40,703 nucleotides of DNA, taken from the NCBI GenBank assembly GCA_021296095.1, contig JAGWBB010000016.1, positions 1 through 40,703 of the forward strand, read 5' to 3'. The position numbers and the translations under genes are program-made. Positions 7,144-8,919 of this stretch are shown here, piece after piece; the stretch's first letter is position 1, and every line of letters starts with the position of its first letter. The notes beneath the pieces were generated by a model that did no database searches, had not been told where the DNA came from, and was given only the letters and a program-made list of their open reading frames with translations. This DNA comes from Desulfurellaceae bacterium (GTDB taxonomy: Bacteria; Desulfobacterota; Binatia; Bin18).

Positions 7144-7168
7144 AAAAAAGCGGGCGTTGCCGCCCGCT
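7144..7168 (-). terminator. Intrinsic terminator of the selenoprotein operon
   Basis: On the minus strand, GCGGGCG and CGCCCGC form a 7-bp stem with a 4-base loop, followed by six T. It begins 16 bp after the stop codon of the UGSC-type gene. Stem, loop and T run are all typical of a Rho-independent terminator. Confidence 0.88.
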
Positions 7169-7183
7169 GTGTAATGAAGCCGC

Positions 7184-7732
7184 CTATAAGGCTGCGGCGC
7201 GCGCGTCTTCGCTGATCAGCCGGGCCACGATGGTATCCATGACCGCGTCGGCACGAGCCCAGACTTCTTCGTGTGTCAGGGGCACGATGGGATGCGGCAC
7301 CGTCACCACCTCATACGAGGGAACGCCCAGGTTGGTGCACTGCACCTTGGCTGCGGCCACAAATTCGGTGGTGGAAATATTGGCGGTCGGAATTCCCTGC
7401 TCTTCAAAATAGGCCACGTCGTGCGAACTGCACGAAATGCACGAGCCTCAAGAGCTGACCGCTTCGATGAGCCCCTGGCAGCGGGACACAATATCCTGGC
7501 GCGCCTGGGGATTGACGACCCGGGTGGGGGCCGGCTTGGCGTGGCGGACCACCTCGGCCACCCCGTAGCGATCCTTGAGCAGCGTCTCAATGCGATCCAG
7601 AAAGATGTTGCTGTTGGGGAAGCCGATGTCTACCAGCGCCAGGGTGGTGCCCCGCAGGCTGGAGAGACGCGGGGCCAGCGCTTTTTCGGCCTTGCCGCTG
7701 TAACCAATCGGGTCAAGCATGTCGTCTGCCAT
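7184..7732 (-). CDS. UGSC-family selenoprotein (UGA read as selenocysteine)
   Basis: The minus strand gives 94 residues from the ATG at 7732 (AAGGAGGA 5 bases upstream), then an in-frame UGA at 7448-7450, then 87 more residues in the same frame. Reading UGA as Sec gives AVSS-U-GSC-ISCSSHDVAYFEEQG, the U-G-S-C motif of the UGSC (seleno)protein family, with Sec at 95 and Cys at 98. The part after the UGA is conserved-looking protein (ISTTEFVAAAKVQCTNLGVP, then VTVPHPIVPLTHEEV), which argues against a chance stop. A hairpin just after the UGA fits a bacterial SECIS. The N-terminal domain (LALVDIGFPNSNIFLDRIETLL) looks like an alpha/beta redox-type fold. The biochemical role is not known to me. 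It forms an operon with the preceding gene, 22 bp apart. selA, selB, selC and selD are not in the window. Confidence 0.85.
7420..7450 (-). promoter_or_regulatory. Bacterial SECIS-like hairpin with its UGA codon
   Basis: The UGA is at 7448-7450. On the minus strand, CGTGC and GCACG form a stem around the loop AGTTC; the hairpin spans 7420-7434 and the loop begins 19 bases after the UGA. The published bacterial SECIS rule asks for a small apical loop 16-37 bases from the UGA with a G among its first two bases, and both conditions hold. A wider TCGTGC/GCACGA pairing is an alternative fold. Confidence 0.6.
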
Positions 7733-7754
7733 GTCGTTCCTCCTTGTCACAAAG

Positions 7755-8831
7755 CTAGAGTGCTATTTTTTTGCTCACCGGCGTGCTGCCCAGGTCGTCG
7801 GCAACCCAGCCGGGAATGGTGACCGAAAAACGGCCTGCGGTGCCGCCCGCAACGACGACCAAGATCGAGTCCGGCGAGCGGAATTTACGGACACGGTCAT
7901 TGACCACAAAGCCGCCCTTTTCGGCCGCATTCAACAGGCTGGCGCCAAAGCCCTCGCCGCCCTTGTCGCCCGGCCTGAGGTCGTCTATGGCGCGTGTGAC
8001 CTGTTCGTACAGAAACTGCCGCACGTCTGTGCGTGACCAGCCGTCGGCCGCAATGACCTGGGCGTGCTCCGGGCTCAGGACCAGGATTGTATCGCCAAAC
8101 AGCGGATAGTTTTTGTAATTCCACAGACCGCCGCCCATGGTCAGGCCGACCGAGTACATCAGCTGTTCGGCGCTCCGGCTCTGAAAGTCGCTGATCTGCT
8201 GCGGCCCGCCGCCGGCAAACAGGGTGATGGCCGATTCGTCCTGAGTGAAACCCCGCTCGGTATGGAACGGCGGCCAGGGCGAGTCTTCCTCGTTCTCGCC
8301 AATAATCGCGCTGTACTGACCGGGCTGGCCCATGGTCGCCTTGGTCAGCTCATGCGGACGGGCGCCACCGATATTCATGATGGTCAGCCGCAGGGCGCGG
8401 CCGATGGTGGCGTTAGGCCGGAAACCGTGGCCGAGCGCGTTATGCCCACAGTTGAGCCCGATGTGCAGCCGGGCCGGGCCGTTGATAATCGCCCACGGCG
8501 CTGCGGAAAAGAGGGTGACATTCATGCCGTGGGCGCACAGCCGTTCGTCGCACAGGGCTTCGACACCGGCCAGCACGACCGGAAAATACGTCGGCGCACA
8601 GCCGGCCATCACCGCGTTCACCGCCACCCGCTCGACCGTGGCCTCGCCATAGCACGGTCCCAGCACACCGATGAGATCGTCCCTGGCCCGATCCGGCGCG
8701 CCGGCCAGCATGCGTTCCACCCGCTCACGGGTCGGCGGTACGGCCGGCAGGCCATCGGTCACCCCCCGCTCGAATAACTGCTCAATGGGATCATCAGCAA
8801 GCGTCAATGTGTCAGCTGCGGCGGTCGCCAT
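7755..8831 (-). CDS. Conserved protein of unknown function, operon partner of the UGSC selenoprotein
   Basis: 358 residues, with a GGAGGG ribosome site before the ATG. No signal peptide or membrane helix is visible, so it is probably cytosolic. Notable segments are VTDGLPAVPPTRERV near residue 25, LGPCYGEATVERVAVNAVMAGC (residues about 57-78, two cysteines that could be redox-active), NCGHNALGHGFRPNATIGRA and IGENEEDSPWPPFH. I recall proteins with the GPCYGxAT and AVMAGCxPxYxPV pattern standing next to, or fused with, UGSC domains, so the two products probably work together, perhaps as a redox enzyme whose reactive part is the Sec protein. That link is from memory and needs a search. The spacing to the selenoprotein (22 bp) supports one transcript. 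Confidence 0.8.
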   Translation of the reverse strand: MATAAADTLTLADDPIEQLFERGVTDGLPAVPPTRERVERMLAGAPDRARDDLIGVLGPCYGEATVERVAVNAVMAGCAPTYFPVVLAGVEALCDERLCAHGMNVTLFSAAPWAIINGPARLHIGLNCGHNALGHGFRPNATIGRALRLTIMNIGGARPHELTKATMGQPGQYSAIIGENEEDSPWPPFHTERGFTQDESAITLFAGGGPQQISDFQSRSAEQLMYSVGLTMGGGLWNYKNYPLFGDTILVLSPEHAQVIAADGWSRTDVRQFLYEQVTRAIDDLRPGDKGGEGFGASLLNAAEKGGFVVNDRVRKFRSPDSILVVVAGGTAGRFSVTIPGWVADDLGSTPVSKKIAL

Positions 8832-8919
8832 GACGTGCCCTCCGTTGGCGTCGTAGTCTAAGAGCTTGGATCGGGGATTGCAAGCGCGAAAAGTCTATGG
8901 CTACGCAGGCACCTCGCTC

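Follow-up and report, generated by a model that had tools for sequence, protein, structure and literature searches.

GrdB and PrdB are among the described selenoproteins closest to the locus presented here. GrdB, with GrdF and GrdH, represents component B of glycine, sarcosine and betaine reductase, and PrdB is the small Sec-bearing subunit of D-proline reductase. In both, the selenolate is thought to attack an amino-acid carbon activated by the pyruvoyl group of the other subunit, after which neighbouring thiols take over. The UGSC family, to which the selenoprotein of the locus belongs, received its name in 2008 or before (PMC2398784). Few selenoprotein families in aquatic microbes are commoner than this one (PMC2398784, PMC9402790), which was given as uncharacterised in 2026 (PMC13188914). 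The 2008 paper counted 255 family members with Sec and 21 with Cys and suggested a thioredoxin-like fold (PMC2398784); Sec encoded by UAG also occurs in the family (PMC5330540). The 2008 report further describes UGSC fused to a domain named Unknown_1, with a conserved Cys and a small distribution (PMC2398784).

The window, i.e. the whole stretch of 40,703 nucleotides from a Desulfurellaceae bacterium that was analysed, carries two adjoining genes on its minus strand. The upstream one is an open reading frame for a partner protein of 358 aa (7755..8831; start 8831, stop 7755); it is read before the gene of the UGSC-family selenoprotein, which gives 182 aa by UGA readthrough (7184..7732), and the intergenic gap is 22 nt. 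The translation of 7732..7184, MADDML...EAVSS-U-GSCISCSSHDVAYFEE...AAL*, contains a single UGA (7450..7448), predicted to encode selenocysteine U95 of a U-G-S-C-x-x-C motif that reads U-G-S-C-I-S-C in this protein. Shine-Dalgarno-like sequences precede both ATGs on the minus strand (GGAGG at 8839..8843 for the partner, AGGAGG at 7739..7744 for UGSC), and an intrinsic-terminator-like hairpin with a T tail follows the UGSC gene on the same strand (7149..7168). A plus-strand reading of 7184-7732 was rejected, as it contains stops and is without homology. The sequence-only reading had placed the in-frame UGA at 7448-7450 correctly and had noted the further Cys after U-G-S-C, good ribosome sites and the terminator; its two-gene unit also stands, to which the strand, left unstated there, and the order (partner first, UGSC second) are added here.

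Assignment to the UGSC family, as proposed from the letters alone, is borne out by curated models: the product scored 145.1 bits with the Pfam model PF24696 (cut-off 25) and 128.6 bits with the NCBIfam model NF041046 (cut-off 125), and it shares motif, Sec codon and length with the family (Zhang and Gladyshev 2008). The PF24696 match covers residues 4-172 and lies on both sides of the UGA. Relative to the homologue at locus L043, dN/dS was 0.125 before the UGA and 0.079 after it; by this sequence measure, purifying selection after the UGA is as strong as before it. The codon at the U95 site was TGA in all 106 homologues with a readable site, which come from genomes and metagenome-assembled genomes (MAGs) of many bacterial phyla. 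In an alignment of 97 sequences U95 and C98 are invariant, and the later C101 is found in 78%. UGSC copies with another codon at this site are few and reside in distant genomes, the replacements including Ser, Gly-like and Asn-like residues. One genome of the phylum (G033; loci L183, L185, L187-L192, L194-L198) contains 16 UGSC copies, most of them fused to a partner; several of these copies are without the Sec codon, some also without the motif Cys, and L198 has two consecutive TGA at the Sec site.

A bacterial SECIS-like hairpin follows the UGA (7418..7436, minus strand; loop AGUUC), in which, numbered from the U of the UGA, positions +15..+21 pair with +27..+33. Taken as a single sequence its folding energy is unexceptional (z -1.14; a fold this stable was reached by 29 of 200 shuffles). 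Across 42 sequences the seven-pair stem was paired at 88.8%, with 23 double-change cells versus 4.9 +/- 1.9 after shuffling; the pairing vanished when the stem position was slid, and the loop reads AGUKU across homologues, G being present in it. Because the stem partly overlaps conserved Cys and His codons, the absolute pairing is partly protein-driven, and the informative part of the signal is the compensatory changes. The genome to which the window belongs (4.32 Mb, 185 contigs) contains selA adjoining the gene for tRNA-Sec (selC) and selB adjoining selD, the latter with a TGA of its own. Two other tRNA-Sec matches barely above the gathering score (G000:C57:5240-5327 and G000:C10:32371-32456) are probably ordinary long-arm tRNAs.

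A chance origin of the UGA-readthrough pattern is excluded, and we predict from sequence, with near certainty, that the 182-aa product is a selenoprotein. Most of what had been claimed for the reading frame holds: protein-like continuity is present on both sides of the UGA, and the sel genes for which a genome search had been proposed were found. The hairpin, put forward as a SECIS element, is upheld by its covariation, not by its stability in this one sequence. Cys in place of U, expected in homologues, did not appear in the near ones, which are Sec-invariant. None of the outcomes named in advance as speaking against a selenoprotein (a genome without sel genes, homologues ending at the UGA, conservation lost after it) occurred.

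Among the 97 UGSC members, the NCBIfam models of GrdB, GrdF, GrdH and PrdB were the only others to recur, those of GrdF and GrdB matching 40-43 members (best E 5.6e-6). When UGSC was compared by hhalign with 28 GrdB/PrdB-like proteins, each translated past its own UGA, P was 2e-9 over UGSC residues 75-174, with U aligned on U; with the motif masked P was 4.2e-6, and reversed controls gave 0.02-0.5. The link is limited to about 90 residues of UGSC. Of the GrdB/PrdB family models considered (PF07355, TIGR01917, TIGR04483), PF07355 gave no match and TIGR01917 14.2 bits against a cut-off of 602. By profile comparison, UGSC is a distant homologue of only the Sec-bearing C-terminal part of GrdB/PrdB. 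PF07355 proteins cut at the UGA gave a false-negative hhalign result because the Pfam model ends there, and readthrough restores the match. That model (GRDB) stops just 5' of the UGA and does not include the Sec end; when the PF07355 loci L151-L180 were read on, 28 of 28 continued through the TGA into U-G-T-C-T-R-C, U-P-V-C or U-G-I-C. The genome of the window itself encodes two PrdB-like proteins (G000:C56:11425-11784, L174, and G000:C17:4622-4978), the first of which runs through a TGA (LVPVUPVCHQSVGL) and is likely another selenoprotein.

The UGSC pair resembles the two reductase systems to different extents. In GrdB-type proteins the homologous Sec domain carries U-G-T-C-T-R-C where UGSC has U-G-S-C-T-S-C, and it is preceded by a 350-residue N-terminal part that UGSC lacks; GrdA or GrdC were not noticed beside the UGSC pair. 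D-proline reductase has the same layout as the pair, namely a small Sec subunit with a homologous Sec domain and a separate larger subunit. That larger subunit, PrdA, is a pyruvoyl proprotein, of which the UGSC partner gave no sign in a comparison run against GrdE. Kinship of the partner to the pyruvoyl subunit GrdE was rejected (P 0.57); the partner being without GrdE similarity, substrate activation must differ from that in GrdB/PrdB.

The partner has at least 567 relatives; no Pfam or NCBIfam family was found for it when 100 members were scanned, and no sequence relative was found in the PDB. In the window's own genome there are seven UGSC genes, all with TGA, and seven partner genes, one beside each and always in the same order. 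Identity among these partners is 34-61%, which indicates an old diversification, not recent duplication. UGSC and partner adjoin in nearly all of 80 named loci, and in-frame UGSC-partner fusions occur in other genomes of the phylum. A mirror-tree comparison of 90 loci gave a pairwise-distance correlation of r 0.92, not reached in any of 999 permutations, a value to which shared species history contributes, although paralogues from one genome are among the loci. The predicted model of a natural fusion (L144) had pLDDT 94.7 and pTM 0.94, the latter giving a confident relative placement of the UGSC and partner parts. It is very likely that the pair forms a physical two-subunit unit. Like the partner, Unknown_1 is fused to UGSC, and judging from the fusions seen here the two are very probably the same domain.

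The arrangement varies at some loci. L044:1-7655 holds two complete pairs in tandem, and L115:7053-8121 has one partner followed by two tandem UGSC genes. Partner copies with no detectable UGSC nearby were seen at some Poribacteria (L101, L109, L111, L113, L119, L120) and Rokubacteria loci (L048, L058), and the Poribacteria homologues are shortened in their C-terminal part. These lone partners may function by themselves or together with a UGSC gene farther away.

Within the fusion model, the UGSC domain matched Rossmann, flavodoxin and receiver-type alpha/beta folds (Z 8-11), the Rossmann-like match being unspecific. The Sec of this homologue lies between strand 87-93 and the next helix (96-111), at the helix start. 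No thioredoxin fold was among the matches listed for the fusion model, which in itself is no proof of absence, and a thioredoxin-like fold for UGSC is unlikely on the modelled structure. These results bear on the reading of UGSC as a thiol/selenol redox protein of the thioredoxin or peroxiredoxin kind, with the partner as its client or reductant, a reading that agrees with the UxxC motif, the invariant Cys and the fold suggested earlier (PMC2398784). We consider it improbable: the confident fusion model is Rossmann/flavodoxin-like, homology points to GrdB/PrdB, and the partner is diverse and paralogous. Further, thioredoxin-type families mostly retain many Cys homologues, whereas UGSC is nearly always a Sec protein, both in the published counts given above and in the 106 of 106 sites read here.

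Modelled alone with AlphaFold2 (pLDDT 93.2, pTM 0.92), the partner had a single Foldseek match below 0.001, the fumarate hydratase alpha structure 7xky_A (E 4.2e-4), followed by cyclic amide hydrolases. The superposition on 7xky_A gave a TM score of 0.25 and an rmsd of 17 A, and VIA-align Z values were at most 4.5, with about 4 for the fumarase fold. Fumarase alpha, cyclic amide hydrolases and chorismate mutase appeared as weak fold matches of the partner in the Foldseek and VIA-align comparisons, none of them convincing. Invariant Asn, Arg, Glu and Thr residues are numerous in the protein (N72, N117, N140, R145, E179, T106/T107), and it has one invariant Cys. It is doubtful, given these low structural scores, that the partner is the enzyme, distantly related to class I fumarase alpha or the cyclic amide hydrolases, and that UGSC merely regulates, matures or protects it. 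The Foldseek ranking and the partners found without UGSC nearby speak for such a role; a single invariant Cys leaves no ligands for a fumarase-type cluster, and the strictly invariant Sec fits a catalytic function of UGSC itself.

Of the 80 named loci, 15 have selB and selA as the nearest recurrent neighbours of the pair, and at most of the linked loci scanned tRNA-Sec sits between selA/selB and the pair. A sixteenth linked locus (L122) has tRNA-Sec beside the pair, which brings the total to 16 loci, all proteobacterial and divided between two separate clades; some of them also include selD. Alphaproteobacteria typically have the genes in the order selA, selB, tRNA-Sec, partner, UGSC; MAGs or genomes of Rhodoferax, Pseudomonas and Rubrivivax have partner, UGSC, selA, selB. 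The sel-linked loci require three changes on the partner tree, at least two of them forced by well-supported branches, so two groups probably gained or retained the linkage. Each of the 16 sel-linked genomes has exactly one UGSC gene, with TGA, and no in-frame TGA was found in their formate-dehydrogenase-like proteins. Fifteen of them have selD, TGA-bearing in one, and two gave weak PrdB-like matches. Among the few selenoprotein families covered, UGSC appears to be a main selenoprotein of these genomes and perhaps the sole one in several.

Besides the sel genes, the recurrent neighbours were scattered catabolic ORFs, named by eye as CoA-transferase-like, LLM-like, SDR-like, ABC transporter and thiolase-like, which gave no clue to the substrate; metal or selenium transport genes were absent from among them. 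A role in selenium or heavy-metal handling instead of carbon metabolism, with the 16 cases of linkage to selA, selB and tRNA-Sec reflecting selenium supply, is very unlikely in view of the multiple diverged pairs per genome away from sel genes, the GrdB/PrdB kinship and this lack of transport genes.

We regard a two-subunit selenoenzyme with a selenolate-nucleophile mechanism like that of GrdB/PrdB as the probable reading of the pair, in which sense the redox enzyme proposed by the sequence-only reading is made more specific. In such an enzyme the invariant residues of the partner would bind and polarise the substrate in place of a pyruvoyl subunit. The U95 selenolate would attack the activated carbon and displace a leaving group, as is thought for GrdB/PrdB, and the invariant C98, sometimes C101, would cleave the resulting seleno-ether or selenyl adduct. 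The Se-S bond so formed may then be reduced by a general thiol system, and the diverged pairs within one genome would serve different substrates. Against this mechanism counts that many UGSC hosts are probably aerobic, whereas GrdB and PrdB function in anaerobes. So do the short reach of the GrdB/PrdB homology, the lack of GrdE similarity in the partner, the unspecific Rossmann-like match and the few partner copies seen without a UGSC nearby.

The kind of system is already known: both the UGSC family and the UGSC/Unknown_1 fusion predate this analysis (PMC2398784), and "undescribed", as the pair had been called, applies only to its other aspects. No statement on GrdB/PrdB kinship, systematic pairing, multiple paralogous pairs or sel linkage was found in the literature searched, in which subscription papers are underrepresented. 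New here are the near-constant partner, the GrdB/PrdB kinship with the Rossmann-like fold, and the sel-gene linkage in proteobacteria.

More tentatively, the pair may represent a widespread selenium-dependent reductive or lyase family that combines a GrdB/PrdB-type Sec domain with a large subunit of new fold and has diversified by substrate inside individual genomes (seven pairs in this one, as many as 16 UGSC copies in another), some proteobacteria possibly holding a Sec-machinery cassette chiefly for making the UGSC enzyme. The GrdB/PrdB kinship, the near-obligate partner and the sel linkage provide a first concrete handle on UGSC function, as they show which two proteins to co-express, which residues to mutate and in which organisms deleting the pair, or selB, should give a single clear phenotype. 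If it is true that some proteobacteria keep the Sec apparatus mainly for the UGSC enzyme, this would bear on the retention of selenocysteine under aerobic conditions.
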